Shown here in pieces: positions 11,563 to 22,728 of a stretch of 22,728 nt of DNA. The stretch is from a virus: IMG/VR virus record IMGVR_UViG_3300044619_000420, positions 1 to 22,728 of that record; one strand, 5' to 3'. The notes below the pieces were generated by a model, which was not told where the DNA came from, searched no databases, and saw only the letters and a list, made by a program, of their open reading frames with translations. The position numbers were made by a program, and so were the translations under genes. Numbering within the stretch: position 1 is the first letter of the stretch; every line of letters begins with the position of its first letter.

Positions 11563-11825
11563 TAGCCACACTTCCAGCGTCTAAGCGACGCCTTTGCTCG
11601 TTCAGCCGGCCCCTTGGCCTTAGCCACCACGCCCTTCATGCGCGCACAGAACGACTTTTTACGTCCCGCGTCCGCCTTAGTCTTCGGACTCGGGGCCGGA
11701 GCCTTCAAGTTGCTGCCCGTCTCGCGGTTGTACTTTGCTCGGCCCTTGGCCGTCAAGCCCGCGCCCTTAGAAACAGGCTGTTTCTCTCCCCGACCCACCG
11801 ACAGACTGACCGACTTGCGTGCCAT
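11562..11825 (-). CDS. Small basic protein, DUF6321-like, 87 aa
   Basis: Starts MARKSVSLSVGRGEKQPVSK, followed by GAGLTAKGRAKYNRETGSNL, KTKADAGRKKSFCARMKGVV and a C-terminal SLRRWKCG. The combination GLTAKGRxKYNRETGSNL, SFCARM and RRWKC is characteristic of a small phage family I recall as DUF6321. It is highly basic with two conserved cysteines. I chose the ATG at 11823-11825 because it shares one base with the terminase stop (TGATG); an in-frame ATG five codons earlier lies inside the terminase gene. Function unknown; position between the terminase and portal suggests a role near packaging. Confidence 0.8.
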   Translation of the reverse strand: MARKSVSLSVGRGEKQPVSKGAGLTAKGRAKYNRETGSNLKAPAPSPKTKADAGRKKSFCARMKGVVAKAKGPAERAKASLRRWKCG

Positions 11826-13354
11826 CAGGCTCCCATCCAACTGCTTGCCATGCCGTTGCCACCCTGGCGGGAGACGACTCGTCTTGGCGCGTCGCGTGCC
11901 TCACGGCTTGCGAGCGGGTAGGCGAAGGTGACGGCGAGCGCGTCTGCCGCATCCGGCGACGCTTGACCTCTGGCCTTCATCTCCTTCTTGCCCTCCAAGA
12001 AGATCGTCCCCGACGAGTTAGGCTTGACGTGTGGCCCGCACAGGTCCGACTTGAGTAGCCGATCAGACGGGATGCTCGCCGTGCGTAGCCATTCCCGCAT
12101 GTCGCCCCACATCTCGGCGCGCTTGTTGCCCCACATCACGGGGTTCTTGGCCTTCCAGCCAAAGTTTACCCCACGAACCTTATACCTCTGCTCTTTCAAT
12201 CGGTCAAGTATGCCATAGCCGAGCCCGCCCTCGTCAATGACCGTGAGCGCCGGGTTGTACTCCTCGATTGCGTCGATGACGCGCCCGACGGTGGCCATAG
12301 TGTCCTCGCCCCGGTAGCGCTTGATTGCTACGATGTCGCGCCCTTGTCGGACGACGATGACGGTGCTGTCGGCGCCGGATCGTGCGGGGTCCACCCCAAT
12401 GACTCGCGGAGCTGTTTCATCCTTGTAGCGGGCGCGCGCCACAGCCTCGTCCACAATTCGCGGAGCAATGAACTGGTCGTCTCCGTCGGAAGGGAACTCT
12501 CCGTAGACCTCGACTTTAGCTTGGCTACTATCTGCTCCATACTCGGCGATGATTTGCTCGTAAACGGCTTTGTCGGTGTCTTCGACTTGGCGCGCGTCGA
12601 TGTTTTGCGTTTGCCAGAATTGCCTTTTTGCGTTGAAACACTCATAAAAATACCCCTCGTTGCGTCGTGGGTTACTGAAGGCGAGCCAGAAGCGATTAGG
12701 CGTGTTTTCCGTAAAGAAGCCCGCCGTCACCGCCCAGATGGGGTCCGGTATACCCGACGCTTCGTCGAATATGACCATCACACCGTCGAAGTTGTGGACA
12801 CCGGCGTACGCGTCGGGGTTCTCCTCCGACCACAGCCGCCCCTCAACCGACCAGTACCGCGTGCCTTTCTTCAGGTCGCGCTCGACGATCTCCGCGAGCC
12901 ACTTGGCCGGCATGACGCGCGTTGCCGACACCTCAAACCAATGACTGTTGAGCAGCAGCGAGAGCCACTTAGTCACCTCGGCCCAGGTGACCGAGCGTAG
13001 CTGGGCTTCCGAGTTAGCCGACACGATGATAGTCGAGCCGATGCGCGTTGATAGCATCCACAGGATCAGCCAGGACACCAAGGCCGACTTACCGATACCG
13101 CGCCCCGAGGCCGTCGCCATGCGCAGCACGTCGTACCCCGTCGCGTTCTTGTTGCGGGCGATGTGAGCGGCCACCTTGCGCAGCACCTCGCGCTGCCACT
13201 TGCGCGGCCCTTGGAAGTTCTCCAGCGGCGTGCCCTTCTGCCCCCACGGGAACGCAAACAGCACGAACGCCTCGGGGTCGTCCTTGACGCTCGGCGACCA
13301 GAGCCGAGTCATCAGTAGCTGCTCGTCCTCGGGGCTATATATCGGAAGTTGCAT
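11825..13354 (-). CDS. terL: Terminase large subunit (DNA-packaging ATPase-nuclease)
   Basis: A 509-aa protein, about the length of P22 gp2 (499 aa). The ATPase half has an adenine-side stretch (GPRKWQREVLRKV, about 49-61), a Walker A loop ASGRGIGKSAL (about 82-92) and Walker B VMVIFDEA (192-199; Asp-Glu at 197-198), followed by a coupling segment LAFSNPRRNEGYF. The nuclease half has the RNase H-like acidic residues in GVDPARSGADST (Asp322), VIDEGGLGYG (Asp374) and SPDAADALA (Asp468 or Asp471). The enzyme cuts concatemeric DNA and translocates it into the procapsid through the portal. It overlaps the small subunit gene by 20 bases, so the two are translationally coupled. All key residues appear intact. 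Confidence 0.95.
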   Translation of the reverse strand: MQLPIYSPEDEQLLMTRLWSPSVKDDPEAFVLFAFPWGQKGTPLENFQGPRKWQREVLRKVAAHIARNKNATGYDVLRMATASGRGIGKSALVSWLILWMLSTRIGSTIIVSANSEAQLRSVTWAEVTKWLSLLLNSHWFEVSATRVMPAKWLAEIVERDLKKGTRYWSVEGRLWSEENPDAYAGVHNFDGVMVIFDEASGIPDPIWAVTAGFFTENTPNRFWLAFSNPRRNEGYFYECFNAKRQFWQTQNIDARQVEDTDKAVYEQIIAEYGADSSQAKVEVYGEFPSDGDDQFIAPRIVDEAVARARYKDETAPRVIGVDPARSGADSTVIVVRQGRDIVAIKRYRGEDTMATVGRVIDAIEEYNPALTVIDEGGLGYGILDRLKEQRYKVRGVNFGWKAKNPVMWGNKRAEMWGDMREWLRTASIPSDRLLKSDLCGPHVKPNSSGTIFLEGKKEMKARGQASPDAADALAVTFAYPLASREARDAPRRVVSRQGGNGMASSWMGA

Positions 13355-13811
13355 ATTCTGCCGTCAGGGCTCGGGTAGCGAGCGTGGTGGGCGCGCGGGT
13401 CAATGCAGCCGGTTCATCCGGCAATACTCGGCCTTCAATGACGCGAGATTCTGCCTCTTGCAGCGCGGCGATGACGCTGATCTGCTGCTTGACATCGACC
13501 TGTACCTGCTGCTTCGCCACCCAACCGTGCACATGCTGGAGGATTGCCAAAGAAGCCTTTGAATCGCCATTGCGAGCCGCGTCACGCAGTTGGTTCGCGG
13601 CCTCAAACTCACTATCTGCACGCCCTTTGGCCTCCGCCATCTCAGCGAGCGGGTCCATCTGACACAGCCGCCGGTACTCCGCCGGCAACAGCCCCGCCGC
13701 CAGGGCAAGGCTATCACCTCTTAGCCCGAGGGCCGCTGCGTCATAAATAGCCTGTAGCCGCGCCTCAGTAGCGTTCAGTTGCCGTGGCGCGTGCGGAAGC
13801 GATTTGAACAT
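13335..13811 (-). CDS. terS: Terminase small subunit (probable)
   Basis: A 158-aa mostly helical protein. Residues about 14-50 (TEARLQAIYDAAALGLRGDS, LALAAGLLPAEYRRL) look like a helix-turn-helix. A central helical region (EAKGRADSEFEAANQLRDAA, KASLAILQHVHGW) could form the oligomer core. A segment VQVDVKQQISVIAALQEAES and a Pro/Thr-rich tail follow. The order HTH, oligomerisation helices and tail, and the place directly upstream of and overlapping the large subunit, are those of small terminases, which recognise the packaging start site (pac or cos) and load the large subunit. Sequence identity to a named family is not obvious, so the call depends largely on context. It is the first gene of the leftward operon. 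Confidence 0.75.
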   Translation of the reverse strand: MFKSLPHAPRQLNATEARLQAIYDAAALGLRGDSLALAAGLLPAEYRRLCQMDPLAEMAEAKGRADSEFEAANQLRDAARNGDSKASLAILQHVHGWVAKQQVQVDVKQQISVIAALQEAESRVIEGRVLPDEPAALTRAPTTLATRALTAEYATSDI

Positions 13812-14036
13812 GTTGCAACACTACCTTTCATGTAAGCAAAAGACAAGCGATGTGCAGGATTGTCCTGCCGGGAGGCCGCGATCCACAACAACCGTGTGGC
13901 CTGTGTGCCGGGGCGGAGATTGCCTTAGATGGTGGGGCTCATAACCCCTTCAGCTACCTCCCGGTCGCTACGTGCGCATCACGTCAGACATCGCCACGCA
14001 AGATTAGCATAAGGTTTTGGCTTACGGGCTAGCGGG

Positions 14037-14055
14037 TAAAAAAATAAAAAAATTT
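14037..14055. other. A/T-only tract, possible DNA-unwinding element
   Basis: Nineteen consecutive A/T bases made of two A7 runs separated by a T. It lies in an otherwise GC-rich surrounding and about 90 bp left of the repeat array. Origins with iterons usually have such an easily melted stretch next to them. It could equally be an UP element or bend for a leftward promoter. Confidence 0.4.
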
Positions 14056-14112
14056 GTGCAACCCCTCCGTACCAGGTACAGCCCACGCGCGGGCCGGCCC
14101 ACCCCCTCAGTT

Positions 14113-14131
14113 GCAAATGATTCTCGTTCGC
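14113..14131. promoter_or_regulatory. Fur-box-like palindrome
   Basis: GCAAATGATTCTCGTTCGC matches 12 of 19 positions of the classical Fur consensus and is an imperfect palindrome (6 of 8 arm positions paired). It ends 17 bp before the first 9-bp repeat. Fur is the iron-responsive repressor of many proteobacteria. A chance match cannot be excluded, and no promoter overlapping it was confirmed. Confidence 0.35.
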
Positions 14132-14242
14132 ATTCAGCCTGGGCGCGGTGGGCAGCGTGGGCAATGTGGGCAACGGCTACGCGCCCCCCGACTGCTAGCC
14201 GTCAAGCGTTGTGGGTCATGTGGGCAATTCTTTGGCCGTTGC

Positions 14243-14295
14243 ATTTGTGGGCAATGTGGGCAATTTGTTTTCGGTTGCCCACATTGCCCACAAAT
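14243..14295. repeat. Perfect 21-bp inverted repeat inside the array
   Basis: The arms 14243-14263 and 14275-14295 are exact reverse complements, separated by an 11-base loop (TTTGTTTTCGG). Each arm contains two complete 9-bp repeat units plus ATTT/AAAT ends. In single-stranded DNA or RNA it would fold into a very stable hairpin. There is no U-tract on either side, so it is not a normal intrinsic terminator. A primase-recognition hairpin, a cruciform or a dimer binding site are the main alternatives. Confidence 0.8.
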
Positions 14296-14390
14296 CGGAG
14301 GGCGTGGGCGATTTGTGGGTCATGTGGGTCAAATGGTCACGGAAAAAAAATCGGAGCGGCTCCAACGGAATGCGCGTCACACGCTCCAGG

Positions 14391-14406
14391 CTGTATGTTT
14401 ATACAG
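14391..14406. promoter_or_regulatory. LexA-type SOS operator
   Basis: CTGTATGTTTATACAG has the CTG-N10-CAG form of the E. coli-type LexA box, with perfectly paired CTGTAT and ATACAG arms, and is followed by TA as in the 20-bp consensus. It lies between two groups of 9-bp repeats. Weak promoter hexamers overlap or adjoin it in both directions: rightward TTTATA (14398-14403) - 17 bp - TAGATT (14421-14426), and leftward TTTACT (minus strand of 14430-14435) - 16 bp - AATACT (minus strand of 14408-14413). Host LexA could therefore repress either one until DNA damage. Which promoter is real cannot be decided from sequence. Confidence 0.7.
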
Positions 14407-14410
14407 TAGT

Positions 14411-14440
14411 ATTTCTTTACTAGATTAGAAGTAAAGAGAT
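14411..14440. repeat. 10-bp inverted repeat beside the LexA box
   Basis: ATTTCTTTAC (14411-14420) and GTAAAGAGAT (14431-14440) pair at 9 of 10 positions across a 10-base A/T-rich spacer. The size and symmetry fit a repressor operator. Its right arm touches the minus-strand repeat unit at 14439. No encoded repressor is visible in the window. Confidence 0.45.
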
Positions 14441-14597
14441 GACCCACAATGCCCACAAGTCATATCCCGCGCTGTAAATATAGGCTCTAGCGCGTGGGCA
14501 ATTCGTCCGCAAAACATGACCCACAATCTGACCCACATGACCCACACCTTGCCCGAAAATGCCTTGCACTTTGAAAGGCGTCTATGTAAAAAAATGC

Positions 14598-14626
14598 TTG
14601 ACAGCCTACGCGCACGCGTCTAATCT
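14598..14626 (+). promoter_or_regulatory. Sigma70-type promoter for the rightward small-gene operon
   Basis: A perfect -35 TTGACA (14598-14603) follows an A-rich stretch that could act as an UP element. The -10 is either TCTAAT (14619-14624, 5/6 matches but only 15 bp spacing) or TAATCT (14621-14626, 17 bp spacing but 3/6 matches). The first gene starts 32-34 bases further right with a GGAG ribosome site. The last 9-bp repeat ends about 50 bp upstream, close enough for a bound protein to influence it. Confidence 0.55.
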
Positions 14627-14657
14627 GCACACATCAACAACGCTTGGAGTTACTGAC

Positions 14658-14882
14658 ATGAAAAACCCCGCCGAAACTCTCGCATGGATTACCGATGCGC
14701 TGGCATCTGGTAAGACTATCTATGTTGCTACCGCGTGGCGCGTTACTAAAGTAACCCCGAAAACTGCTCAGCAGTTTGCTGACGCTGGCCGTCCGATTTT
14801 TAAAGCGTCCGAAAAGTCTTTATATATGTCTGTCGGTCGCCGTTATGACTGCATCGACTATTGCCAGATTACCGCCCAGTAA
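14658..14882 (+). CDS. Small hypothetical early protein, 74 aa
   Basis: Starts MKNPAETLAWITDALASGKT and ends SVGRRYDCIDYCQITAQ. A mixed alpha/beta fold is likely: an N-terminal helix followed by strands (TIYVATAWRVTKV) and a helix ending in ADAGRPIFKASEKSLYM. The closing 'xxxCIDYCxIT' pattern occurs in small phage proteins of unknown function. I chose the ATG at 14658 because TTGGAG lies at good distance before it. An upstream in-frame ATG at 14559 would place the start before the promoter. First gene of the rightward operon. Confidence 0.75.
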   Translation: MKNPAETLAWITDALASGKTIYVATAWRVTKVTPKTAQQFADAGRPIFKASEKSLYMSVGRRYDCIDYCQITAQ

Positions 14883-17911: not shown

Positions 17912-17936
17912 GTGGCTATTTCCCGACGATAGATAA
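17871..17936 (+). CDS. Possible 21-aa single-span membrane peptide
   Basis: A frame reading MYLLLTIAAAVLVEWLFPDD plus Arg. Residues 2-17 are hydrophobic enough to cross a membrane once, with an acidic C-terminal end. It overlaps both the 67-aa gene and, tail to tail, the primase-helicase. No strong ribosome site is seen (AGG is about 14 bases away), so this is only a possibility. Confidence 0.25.
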   Translation: MYLLLTIAAAVLVEWLFPDDR

Positions 17937-20210
17937 CGCAGGTTCGGCACCCTCCGCCATCCGCCGCAGCTCTGACCGCGCAAGGGTTGCAAACTGAGGG
18001 TGGGCGTATACATGCTTCTTGGTTGGGAACTCACGAGAGTGCAGCCGACCACAATCAACCCACCCAGCATCCCGTAGCGCGTGCATGAGCGCGGCAGGGA
18101 CGACCTTGACGCCGGAGGGTGCCACGCCTTGCAGCCGGTCGCAGATGGCGTAGAACGGCGAGGCAATGACGCCACGGGCAAAGTCGCCCTGGCGTTGACG
18201 GATCATCTCGACAAGGAACGACTCGGCGGTGCTCATCGCCGACTCGATCATGATGATTTTAGCCTCGGTCATGGGCGGCGCAGCGCCGGGGTTGAAGGCC
18301 GACACATCGCGGGCGTCGAGCCACGCGGTGACAGCTTGGAAGCCGCCCGCGTAGTACCAATTCCAGAGCGCGCGCGCCTCAGCGGGCGGCATACGGTCGG
18401 CCTCGCTCCACACGACGAACCAGCGGCGGTCATCCGAAGGGAGGCTGATAGCCGCGCGTTCGTTGCTGAATGACACCACCAGTACGCGGTTCAAAGCATC
18501 GTAAGGGTGCAAGCCCTTGCGGTTGACCGTCAGCAGCTCGGGCGGCGCGGCGATCACGGGCTTGAGGCTGTTTTCAAGCGCGCGGCGGTCTTTAGCCTCG
18601 GCCTGACGCAACTCGTTGATAACGATAACCTCAGATTCCAGCGCGTAGCCCCACTGAGAATTCAGCTCCTCGTTACGCACCGTCGTGACATTGACGCGCT
18701 GGTCGCCGCCGATTGCCCAGAAGAAGGGTGCCCAAAGCGTGTCCTTACCGGAGCCTGGCTTGCCCGCGTGCAGCACGGCATGGTTAATTTTCTGGTTGGC
18801 GTGCTGGCGCTTGTAGGCCATCACATCAAGCACATGCTCGCGTTCGGCGGGGTCGGGAATCATGCGCTCGGCGTGAGCGAGCCACGGACTGACATCGCCC
18901 GCGCTCACCGCAGGCCGCGCGTCGCGCCAGCGGTTGCCGTAGACGACGCCGTTACGGCTGACAAGAATGGACTCGCCAGCGGCGAATGTGACGCCCGCGA
19001 GCACACGCGCGCCCATCGCCTGGCGGTTCTCGTCAAAGCAGACGGACGCTTCGATGCGTCGGTTGTTGTGGATAGAATGGCAGGTCACATGCCGGTACAG
19101 CGCGTTGAACACTCCGCGCGCGATCTCGTGACGCTCGCCTAAGTCGAAATACGCGTCATCGCTGAGAACATACGCGAAACGCTCGTACCACTTGGACTTC
19201 TCGACGCGACCTAGCTCGCGGCGCTCGACTTGGGCGATGACCTCGGCGGCGGTGTCGGGAAACTCCTCGGTTGGGGTGATTTTCGACAAAGCGGCCTCCA
19301 TCTTCTTCGCAAGCAGGTCATCACGCAGGCCGTAGCCCGTCTTAGGGCCGCCCTCGGCCTCGACCCAGCGCAGGAACTTCTCGCTGTTCCAATCGCCGCA
19401 ATGGCCGTGAAAGCAAGTATAACTGCGCGTGACGGGGTGATACCGCCCTTGCGTGTCGGCAGTGGTGTGCTCGGCGTGGTTCGGGCACACGACGCCGTAC
19501 CAGCCCTCGGGGTTGGCCTTGGCGAGCAGCAGCCCGCGCTCCTGTACCCACTCCAACACGCTATCAAGGCCGTCATCTTCGATGGCGATGCCTTGGATAT
19601 GCGCCGTGTCAACCTCGCCAGGCGTAACGCCACAGGCTGTAACAATCTGCGTTACGGTAAACTCGCGGTCGGGGTGGAACTCGGTGAGTACGGCGGCGAA
19701 ATTGTCGCGGCCTTCCTTCAGGTTGACGCTGCCTTCGATGCGGAAATTACGCACCGGATTCACCGCGCCGGGGTCGGTGAACCCAGCCTCGGCCATAGCC
19801 TTAATCGCTGCGCTGAACTCGCCCTTGGTCGGCTGATCGTCAAGCGCGAAGGTGTAGCCCCATTGGAAGTTGCCGGGGCTGGTTTCGAGCTTCCATGTCG
19901 GCTCGATCGGCGGTACCTTGGACTTGGTGCCGATGTCATCCAACACCATAAACGCCACGCGCTCGACGTTGGGCGCCGACGCCGACAGTTTGTCCGTCAT
20001 GCGGTCAACGATGAACGAGCCGGTGTTGGCGTACCACGCCCCCTCGGGGTTGCGCATGTACTTGCCATAAAGACCTGGCGGCCACGTGTAGCGCGGCGTG
20101 CCGTCCTTGTGCTTCAGATGCTCGCCCTTGCGGACGATTGGCACCTGGCGTACAAAAAGAATCACTTCCCCTTCTGGGGCGGTGTTGTTAAGATACTCCG
20201 CGAACTTCAT
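17916..20210 (-). CDS. Primase-helicase fusion: RepB-like AEP primase, zinc finger, SF3 helicase
   Basis: A 764-aa replication protein. The N-terminal part resembles RepB-type archaeo-eukaryotic primases: VAFMVLDDIGTK (Asp91, Asp92), the ETSPGNFQWGYTF stretch (109-121) and RNFRIEGSVNLKEG (154-167), equivalent to the 'R-PGS-N-K' motif. A zinc-finger-like region follows (VCPNHAEH, 241-248, and YTCFHGHCGDW, 264-274). The C-terminal part is a DUF5906-like SF3 helicase with Walker A GKPGSGKD (483-490), Walker B EVIVINEL (527-534), sensor-type SFSNERAAISLPSDDRRWFV (580-599) and a trailing helical domain. It would prime and unwind DNA at the phage origin and probably recognises it, perhaps via the 9-bp repeats (inference). 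The ribosome site is AGGGG. The gene end overlaps the rightward operon and no terminator separates them. Confidence 0.88.
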   Translation of the reverse strand: MKFAEYLNNTAPEGEVILFVRQVPIVRKGEHLKHKDGTPRYTWPPGLYGKYMRNPEGAWYANTGSFIVDRMTDKLSASAPNVERVAFMVLDDIGTKSKVPPIEPTWKLETSPGNFQWGYTFALDDQPTKGEFSAAIKAMAEAGFTDPGAVNPVRNFRIEGSVNLKEGRDNFAAVLTEFHPDREFTVTQIVTACGVTPGEVDTAHIQGIAIEDDGLDSVLEWVQERGLLLAKANPEGWYGVVCPNHAEHTTADTQGRYHPVTRSYTCFHGHCGDWNSEKFLRWVEAEGGPKTGYGLRDDLLAKKMEAALSKITPTEEFPDTAAEVIAQVERRELGRVEKSKWYERFAYVLSDDAYFDLGERHEIARGVFNALYRHVTCHSIHNNRRIEASVCFDENRQAMGARVLAGVTFAAGESILVSRNGVVYGNRWRDARPAVSAGDVSPWLAHAERMIPDPAEREHVLDVMAYKRQHANQKINHAVLHAGKPGSGKDTLWAPFFWAIGGDQRVNVTTVRNEELNSQWGYALESEVIVINELRQAEAKDRRALENSLKPVIAAPPELLTVNRKGLHPYDALNRVLVVSFSNERAAISLPSDDRRWFVVWSEADRMPPAEARALWNWYYAGGFQAVTAWLDARDVSAFNPGAAPPMTEAKIIMIESAMSTAESFLVEMIRQRQGDFARGVIASPFYAICDRLQGVAPSGVKVVPAALMHALRDAGWVDCGRLHSREFPTKKHVYAHPQFATLARSELRRMAEGAEPALSIVGK

Positions 20211-20234: not shown

Positions 20235-20263
20235 AAGCCCGGCCTAACCCGCCGGGCTTTTTT
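20235..20263 (+). terminator. Strong intrinsic terminator pointing along the plus strand
   Basis: A perfect 9-bp GC-rich stem (AAGCCCGGC / GCCGGGCTT) with a 7-base loop is followed on the plus strand by six T (20258-20263). Read on the minus strand, the stem is followed only by AAAC, so that direction lacks a U-tract. Both flanking genes run on the minus strand. The last T residues overlap the polymerase stop codon. Confidence 0.8.
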
Positions 20264-22217
20264 ATTTACCGTATCGGCTCATAATCTTGACGCCGGTCTT
20301 GAGCGGGAACCCTTTAGCCCACTCGGGCGCGGTACACATCACTGTATCCAGCACCTCGGCGACAGCCTCGCCGGCCTCGTTCGCACATTCGATAACGATT
20401 TCATCATGCACGTGCAGCACCGTTTGTAAGCCTTGGTTATCTAACTCGCGCAGGCTATGCCTTAGCAGATCGTTAGCCGTGGCCTGTGTGATGTTCTCGC
20501 AGGCAAGCCCTTTCCAAAGCCGCGCGCGGGGCCACTCTTTAGCGTCCTGCGCAGGCTTCCATGCTGCCTTGAGATAACTCACACCGTCCGACTCCAGACG
20601 GGCGAACGGGTAACATAACACGCGCCCTGATGGCAGCGCGTACCAAAGATGTTGACCGTCAAACATGTACACCACGCGGCCAATTGCGAATTCATGGTTG
20701 ACATTTCGCATGGCGCGGGTGTAAGTGTCTTCAAGCTTTTGCCAATAGCGCACGGCCCACGGGTTAGCCCGCCGCCAACGATCCACAATGCGCTGCGCCT
20801 CGGGCTCGCTCATGTGTACGCCATACGCCCGGCCCATAGCACTGAACGCGCCGACGCCGCCCGCAAAACCAAGGGAGAGGATGGCGACCTTGCCAATCTG
20901 GCGCTGGTCGTCCGTCACGGCGTCCGATGTGGTGTTGTAGATACCCGCCGCTTCACGCTTGTAGATGTCGCCGCCAGCGCGGAACACATCCAGCACCGAC
21001 TCTGCAAGCGGGTCGGCGGAGAGCCAGGGTGTCGCGCGCGCCTCTATAGCTGCCCAGTCGGCCACGACGAAAACGTTACCTCGGGCGGGGACGAGAGCTG
21101 GGCGGAGCATTGATTTAAGAACGTCCGTAACGCGCTTGCCGTATCGGGGCACGATACTGTGACCTCGCACCAAGGCTTGACGGGTTGCGTCAGGTTCGGT
21201 GCTGCACTTACGCGTAAAGTTATGGACTTGTGCCCCGTAGCTTGAAGCACGCCCGGTGGCACTTCCACCAGCAAAAATAAAGGCTCCTCGGACACGGGCG
21301 TCCCCTCCTGCTAGCTGCTTCAAGCGGTTGAACTTAGCCACCGACGATGCCCACAAGTCATCCGCGCACTGCACTACGTCAGCCACGTCTGGCGGCAACT
21401 CATCGGGGTTGTCCATAGCAAGCAGGTTCGCCCGCACGGTTTTGTCAATACTAAACTTCTTCTCGCCGTCTTTATAGACGGTCATCAACTTCTTGGCCTC
21501 AGGCCCGACGCGCTCCAGCACCCACTCGCGCATCTTGGGACTGCGAACGGTCGTAATCTCGCCCTGCGTCACCTCGGCGACCAGCCGTTCAATGTCCTGC
21601 AATTCAGCTTCCGCGTGACGGATCGCCGCCTCGCAAAGCGGTACATCAACGCCGACACCACGGTCGTTAATGCGCTCGTTGACGTGGTAATCGGCTAGCT
21701 CGGTGTCCGACAGGTCGCGCATGGCCTTGCTGATTTCGCGCATGGCGCGCACGTCCTGCTCGCAGTAGGCCACCATCTCGGCGAGCAGGTCAGGGTCGTT
21801 GTTGAACGTCCCGTCAGCGCGGGGGATGGACAACTGCCGGATAAGCTGCGCGCCTCGGTAGTCCTTCTTCATCTTGGATGACAGGGCGCGGCCGATGTCC
21901 TCAAGGCTACCAGGCAGGCAGTTGGCCCGCGCCTGTGCAGATGTACAGTAAAACTGCTCTAGCGCAAACGGCATGTCAAGCACATGCCAGAAGATAAGCC
22001 GCTCAAACGCGGCGTTATGCGCGCGGATTGGCCCCATCCAGCGCGCCACGCGCTCAGGGAACGGGTACTTGGGCAGCCATGTCTCAACCTCGCCATCGTC
22101 AAAGGCGTAGGACATACAAAGCACCTCGGTGCTCGGGTGCTTGGCGTAGTTGTACGCGCCCGCTGCCGGTAGGTCGCAGCGGCTGCGGGTCTCGAAATCT
22201 AACCAAAGAGTTGCCAT
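20262..22217 (-). CDS. DNA polymerase family A with 3'-5' exonuclease domain
   Basis: 651 aa from the ATG at 22217. Exonuclease motifs: LWLDFETRS (Asp7, Glu9), AHNAAFERLIF (Asn68) and YCEQDVRAM (Tyr151, Asp155). Polymerase motifs: A, VVADWAAIEARATPW (Asp387, Glu392); B, RQIGKVAILSLGFAGG (Arg439, Lys443); C, LHVHDEIVIE (His604, Asp605, Glu606). It replicates phage DNA with proofreading. The position equivalent to E. coli F762 is leucine (Leu447). A GTG 13 codons upstream (22256), overlapping the previous stop as GTGA, is an alternative start; I prefer the ATG because the conserved exonuclease begins there, although neither has a clear ribosome site and the GTG would place a terminator-like hairpin (22226-22246) inside the coding sequence. 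Confidence 0.93.
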   Translation of the reverse strand: MATLWLDFETRSRCDLPAAGAYNYAKHPSTEVLCMSYAFDDGEVETWLPKYPFPERVARWMGPIRAHNAAFERLIFWHVLDMPFALEQFYCTSAQARANCLPGSLEDIGRALSSKMKKDYRGAQLIRQLSIPRADGTFNNDPDLLAEMVAYCEQDVRAMREISKAMRDLSDTELADYHVNERINDRGVGVDVPLCEAAIRHAEAELQDIERLVAEVTQGEITTVRSPKMREWVLERVGPEAKKLMTVYKDGEKKFSIDKTVRANLLAMDNPDELPPDVADVVQCADDLWASSVAKFNRLKQLAGGDARVRGAFIFAGGSATGRASSYGAQVHNFTRKCSTEPDATRQALVRGHSIVPRYGKRVTDVLKSMLRPALVPARGNVFVVADWAAIEARATPWLSADPLAESVLDVFRAGGDIYKREAAGIYNTTSDAVTDDQRQIGKVAILSLGFAGGVGAFSAMGRAYGVHMSEPEAQRIVDRWRRANPWAVRYWQKLEDTYTRAMRNVNHEFAIGRVVYMFDGQHLWYALPSGRVLCYPFARLESDGVSYLKAAWKPAQDAKEWPRARLWKGLACENITQATANDLLRHSLRELDNQGLQTVLHVHDEIVIECANEAGEAVAEVLDTVMCTAPEWAKGFPLKTGVKIMSRYGK

Positions 22218-22225
22218 AGAAAAGT

Positions 22226-22246
22226 CGGGGGCCGAGGGCGCCCCCG
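22226..22246 (-). terminator. Terminator-like hairpin between the partial gene and polymerase
   Basis: On the minus strand a 7-bp stem (CGGGGGC / GCCCCCG) with a 7-base loop is followed by ACTTTTCT. It begins 7 bases after the stop of the upstream gene and ends 9 bases before the polymerase ATG. It could be an attenuator that lowers polymerase expression or an RNA-stabilising hairpin. Confidence 0.5.
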
Positions 22247-22252
22247 TCTCCG

Positions 22253-22728
22253 TCACGCAGCGCGACGCCGGCGGGTCGCAGCGGCTGGCGGCGGAGTGTC
22301 ATCCCCACCGTCCGGCTCGTTAGCAACTTCGCCTTCCATGGACACCCACTCGACGATCTCAAAGACCGGCGTGAAGATGCGGCCATAGCTCTTGTGCTGG
22401 TAGTGCTCCTTCTTCAGATGCACGACCGGCACCGGCTTGCTCTGGTCACGCTCGACCTGCGCGGCAATGGCTGCTGCCAAAGCCTGCACGGCACGCTTGC
22501 CGCCCACCGACGTGGTGCTGTAGCGGGCCTCAAGGCCCACATCCTCACCCGAGATGCACTTCAAGCTCATGCCGACCTGCGTCTCCCAGCCCTTCTTGCT
22601 CTGCGGCGGTGCCGGGTCGAGCTCAGGCAGCGGCTGTGACACCGACACCATCTTCTCGCCCAAGACCTCGCCGTCGCCCCAGGCAATGAAGCCGTGGACG
22701 AACGAGAAAGGATTGATTGCCCACTTGC
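22253..22728 (-). CDS. Conserved phage replication-region protein, partial
   Basis: The frame is open to the right window edge (two bases plus whole codons), so the N-terminus is missing; at least 157 residues are present. Readable stretches are KWAINPFSFVHGFIAWGDGE, SKKGWETQVGMSLKCISGED, ARYSTTSVGGKRAVQALAAA, HYQHKSYGRIFTPVFEIVEW and a Pro/Ala-rich basic tail (PPPAAATRRRRAA). The pattern 'P-FSF-HG-xxWGxGEVLGE ... SxGGKRAVQAL ... YKHKSYGRIxTPxFxIxEW' recurs in phage proteins encoded beside family A polymerases. I know of no proven function. A small OB-like protein, such as a single-stranded DNA-binding protein, is one possibility (inference). Its stop overlaps the alternative polymerase start. 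Confidence 0.7.
   Translation of the reverse strand, partial: KWAINPFSFVHGFIAWGDGEVLGEKMVSVSQPLPELDPAPPQSKKGWETQVGMSLKCISGEDVGLEARYSTTSVGGKRAVQALAAAIAAQVERDQSKPVPVVHLKKEHYQHKSYGRIFTPVFEIVEWVSMEGEVANEPDGGDDTPPPAAATRRRRAA

Follow-up and report, generated by a model that had tools for sequence, protein, structure and literature searches.

The window analysed here is the whole of IMG/VR virus record IMGVR_UViG_3300044619_000420 (positions 1-22,728; 22,728 bases). In one short intergenic stretch of it a nine-base unit, GTGGGYMAT, is repeated many times, and among the papers listed by a literature search for the unit itself there were only unrelated sequences. What does this array do, and which protein reads it? 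A preliminary description of the DNA had considered an initiator-bound iteron origin to be reasonable. This is the best-supported reading, judging from two features of the sequences: a covariation between the unit and the wing of the phage primase-helicase, and units that face each other around an AT-rich core. Very probably the array serves a podovirus as its origin of replication, the units being recognised by the C-terminal winged helix of the primase-helicase, with wing residue 726 reading base 1.

The array and its neighborhood

The window opens with minus-strand genes, namely structural genes, terL (large terminase subunit, 11825-13354) and terS (small terminase subunit, named by position, 13335-13811). 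The gap with the array and a group of small plus-strand genes (from 14658) come next, followed, again on the minus strand, by a 764-residue primase-helicase with a DUF5906/D5-type helicase (17916-20210), which is the proposed initiator, and a family A DNA polymerase (PolA, 20262-22256). This map bears out the preliminary description, which had placed the array in the only divergent gap of the window and had recognised both replication enzymes. Portal, terminase and further structural genes are present, unlike in a satellite without a full virion gene set. A relative record of 37,547 bases (G001; loci L204 and L205) holds the entire window at 100% identity; its ends overlap by 127 bases, inside the array, and the complete map is therefore circular. 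Close relatives in the genome collection (L371-L377) come mostly from freshwater-type metagenome bins (Rhodoferax, betaproteobacteria), a faint hint that the host may be among freshwater Burkholderiales.

Exact matches to GTGGGYMAT number 12 in the window against 0.49 expected from shuffles (the largest shuffle had 4). Eleven of them lie within 14157-14545, and the twelfth is an isolated site in a coding gene, at 22716. If one or two mismatches are tolerated, the array comprises 18 nine-base units at 14148-14545, in both orientations. Most are paired in tandem at an exact 9-bp spacing, and one group, at 14148-14174, is a triplet, so that the count and arrangement first reported are confirmed. 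The units start at 14148, 14157, 14166, 14211, 14220, 14247, 14256, 14274(-), 14283(-), 14304, 14315, 14324, 14439(-), 14448(-), 14494, 14516(-), 14528(-) and 14537(-), where (-) marks the minus strand. They form a left set of 12 (14148-14332), 10 of them on the plus strand and mostly pointing right toward an AT-rich core, and a right set of six (14439-14545), five of them on the minus strand and mostly pointing left toward it. The core (14391-14440, GC 0.26) is the lowest-GC 50 bp within 2 kb on either side, and lies inside the array. The preliminary description had put the array next to a pure A/T tract; such a tract does exist, at about 14037-14055, but 90 bp separate it from the array, and it belongs to a terS-proximal block (14037-14109) that also has a G/C-rich stretch. 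The likely melting region is the core rather than this tract.

The units are of two subtypes, ..GCAAT and ..GTCAT, which had been thought possibly to serve two proteins. That reading is ruled out, because in re-coded relatives base 1 changes jointly in both (TTGGGCAA and TTGGGTCA in L149). The subtypes look like tolerated variation at unit bases 6-7.

The core also contains a LexA-type SOS box, CTGTATGTTTATACAG (14391-14406), with the CTGT-N8-ACAG palindrome of a LexA operator. This palindrome is found in 15 of 53 arrays; these make up 15 of its 24 occurrences in 3.5% of the bases, versus 1 of 14 for two rearranged palindromes. LexA binding here is put forward as a suggestion from the sequence, since AT-richness somewhat favours such a box.

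The array in related genomes

A pattern scan for the unit recovered 120 viral stretches, of which 94 have four or more units within 500 bp, and scans drawn by the primase added several hundred further loci that were not selected for any unit. In many relatives the array is found once per genome, in the gap that lies upstream of the terminase genes. It sits beside terS, at a distance that rarely exceeds a few hundred bp. This answers the check proposed earlier, that arrays should be single, and clustered short direct repeats present once per replicon are a feature of iteron origins. The layout around the core is also general. Among 49 non-redundant arrays, 39 contain the 50 bp of lowest GC content for 2 kb around (6.2 expected), 504 units point toward the AT-rich core versus 130 away from it, and by locus the units face the core in 45 cases versus 2. 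In most of these arrays iteron sets thus flank an AT-rich region. The other check that had been proposed, GC skew, was uninformative and does not settle the position of the origin: in only three of eight full-length relatives was the minimum no more than about 2.5 kb from the array, a result confounded by gene direction, and over ten full-length relatives there was no consistent switch at the array.

More distant primases are accompanied by altered units (TTGGGCAAT, ATAGGTCAT, GTGGACAAT, GTAGGCAAT, ATTGTCAT and others). In L224 (MW202483), where the primase is 52% identical and the wing residue is Pro, TGTTTACAT-type repeats and a second TTGGTAGTG/CACTACCAA set occupy 28.2-29.0 kb. One clade (L007, L010, L018, L022, L030 and L077) has a second, palindromic repeat family, about TTAGTGnnCACTAACTTAG, in 5-7 copies between the array and terS. 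Four of these loci (L007, L010, L018 and L077) retain the pair TTGCCCACATGACCCACA (GTGGGTCAT plus GTGGGCAAT) just upstream of terS, even with an altered array unit; in L077 that unit is ATGGACAAT and the wing residue is Ser.

The array goes with the replication genes and not with the packaging genes. Fourteen loci have an unrelated small terminase, a portal that is barely alignable, and a TerL so divergent that it matches weakly at best. The array-bearing members of this group nevertheless retain a homologous primase and polymerase (where the contig extends that far) and the original unit; the array therefore follows the replication module. In the phage DSL-LC05 (OR003940; L225) terL and portal are homologous, the replication module is unrelated, and TerS matches at its C-terminal end only. 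Its gap beside terS, at 33.4-34.0 kb, has array-like CCCAGTGGGTCAG repeats (GTGGGTCA core). These may be the array of its own initiator; the primase-based explanation of the origin does not cover them.

Covariation of the primase-helicase wing with the unit

Structure predictions give the primase-helicase a C-terminal winged-helix domain (residues 640-764; 17919-18293, minus strand), which is the proposed iteron reader. Within it, the wing region (residues 719-735; 18006-18056, minus strand) includes Arg726 (codon 18033-18035), and this position covaries with base 1 of the unit. Among the primase-drawn loci, all 74 with Arg726 have G at base 1, and none of the 38 with another residue does. When reduced to 53 non-redundant loci, the data divide into 36 with Arg726 and G versus 17 others, with zero exceptions. 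Residue 726 is the sole perfect column of the primase-helicase in this set; the next column reaches 81%, and the best columns elsewhere reach 88% (TerS), 87% (TerL) and 83% (PolA). A further association concerns residue 724, where Lys or His goes with G at base 3 in 24 of 24 cases. The primase-helicase had been named as a protein to test for binding to the array, and the base-1 covariation supports it as the binder; that its C-terminal winged helix reads the units appears to be the best explanation of these sequences.

Because the calling of units matters here, the procedure should be noted. The first de novo motif caller took a second palindromic repeat or A/T runs in many loci, and was replaced by a tandem-unit caller. 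This was tuned on the first locus set and hence frozen before the held-out test. With the frozen caller and 135 new loci, which belong to the same wide family as the first set and so are held out yet related, 50 of the 51 callable loci fit the rule linking residue 726 to base 1. The lone exception was a mixed GTAGTCA/TTAGTCA array. Shared descent was addressed with a tree built from primase residues outside the wing, of which only supported branches were used. Nine independent pairs that differ at residue 726 changed the same way in the unit in 8.7 cases on average, with 0 opposed (median p 0.004); the first set alone gave 6 of 6 (p 0.03).

The loci L245, L248 and L259 are near-isogenic, with TerS 97-99% and TerL 99% identical and primase residues 1-340 almost identical; PolA is 99% identical between L245 and L248. 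Their units are GTAGTCA, ATTGTCA and GTAGGCAA, and their wings differ too. The counterpart of the terS-proximal block is nearly unchanged in all three, and since it is constant despite the change of unit it probably has a separate function. The G-rich part beside the A/T tract is possibly a packaging or promoter element. Elsewhere, the combination of wing VASGD and unit TTGGGTCA recurs in distant primase clades (L278 versus L509 and L512; L230 and L234), in one case next to a near-identical phage with KSREF/GTGGACAA, and it is possible that wing and array are exchanged as a cassette.

Could the array be bound for some other purpose, or by some other protein? Covariation reveals a reader and not the purpose of reading, and binding alone could serve regulation. 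The array might then be only an operator at which the primase-helicase controls divergent early and late promoters, with replication starting elsewhere; its place in the divergent gap is as such a role would have it, and there are relatives in which promoter-like sequence close to terS or to the early genes is overlapped by single units or by pairs of them. However, 18 units that face each other across an AT-rich core, a layout shared by the relatives, have the architecture of an origin and not of a promoter switch. The proposed reader is a helicase-primase, and a sigma-70-type promoter scan of positions 13700-14800 found none. A purely regulatory array is accordingly unlikely.

The proximity to terS raises instead the idea of a pac or cos packaging site bound by the adjoining TerS, and it would agree with the observation that contigs end at many different positions, as those of circularly permuted genomes with headful packaging do. 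Yet the sequence of the site does not track TerS: the unit differs between phages whose TerS is 97-99% identical, the lineage with an unrelated TerS still carries the array, no TerS column predicts the unit (88% at best), and what stays constant is the separate G-rich block near terS. TerS was thus rejected as the array reader, and we hold a packaging site to be very unlikely. As for an unrelated repressor or a partition protein, the complete genome (L204/L205) does encode a protein in which a Fis-type HTH part is joined to an exonuclease-like domain. Against such a binder, only the primase wing gives a perfect prediction of the unit in the 53 non-redundant loci, conservation of the small genes next to the array is poor among the loci that have one, and the genes scanned included no recognisable partition gene; we give it hardly any credence. 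An origin read by the primase-helicase is the reading adopted below.

Known initiators, a model of initiation, and its meaning

The helicase part of the protein matches the fold of the C-terminal region of NrS-1 polymerase (6k9c, E 9e-18) and of the SaPI5 primase-helicase (7ola, E 3e-9). A fold search with the C-terminal domain gave no significant match (best E 0.15). The protein would nonetheless be of the type of initiator that combines a helicase with a C-terminal DNA-binding domain, the domain being taken from the predicted structure. NrS-1 primase-polymerase, the best fold match, itself synthesises DNA, whereas the phage described here has a separate family A polymerase. The P4 origin, with its ori and crr, has short repeats in both orientations, as does the phage array. 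In the satellite phage P4 the alpha protein fuses primase and helicase in one initiator (PMC7145576), which is a second likeness; the solved DNA-binding domain of alpha was absent among the best 50 fold matches listed for the phage C-terminal domain. SCCmec Cch2 is a probable self-loading helicase of the Primase_Cterm/D5 type whose isolated C-terminal domain binds repeats (PMC7581432). It resembles the proposed phage system in pairing this kind of helicase with an iteron origin, and differs in having three AAGTG repeats and a separate primase subunit where the phage has 18 nine-base units.

The staphylococcal islands and their relatives (SaPI/PICI with Rep or Pri-Rep) are similar in two respects, the fold match to the SaPI5 protein and the origin itself: PMC6092414 describes PICI origins as two iteron sets that flank an AT-rich region, which is the layout of the phage array. 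Their initiator helicase recognises iterons through its C-terminal domain, according to PMC7581432, citing Ubeda 2007. There are also clear differences. The phage is a podovirus in its own right, complete with virion genes and a PolA of its own, its unit and wing are not those of the islands, and its array lies not directly 3' of the initiator gene but about 3.4 kb past the 3' end of that gene, across the small-gene cluster and next to terS.

With these systems in mind, initiation may be pictured as follows. The primase-helicase would bind units of the two iteron sets, which face each other across the AT-rich core, directly via its C-terminal winged helix, wing residue 726 reading base 1 and Arg at this position contacting G. 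Tandem and facing binding would assemble two helicase rings, the core at 14391-14440 would melt, the primase-helicase would prime, and synthesis would be handed over to the phage's own family A polymerase to replicate the genome. We infer melting, ring loading, priming and the hand-over to PolA from SaPI/PICI-type and NrS-1-type systems.

A tentative interpretation is that the origin is re-targetable, wing and array changing or being swapped together where the rest of the genome is nearly the same, so that co-circulating phages may have mutually blind replication systems, and that origin firing or early transcription responds to the SOS state of the host through the LexA box in the core; we regard this as possible but doubtful. 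On the reading preferred here, what was an unnamed repeat of uncultured freshwater phages becomes an origin whose reader can be named and which obeys a rule of one residue for one base. The relatives would provide a series of initiators matched in nature to their origins, in which to study how replication specificity switches, and a route to locating the origin in hundreds of metagenomic phages.
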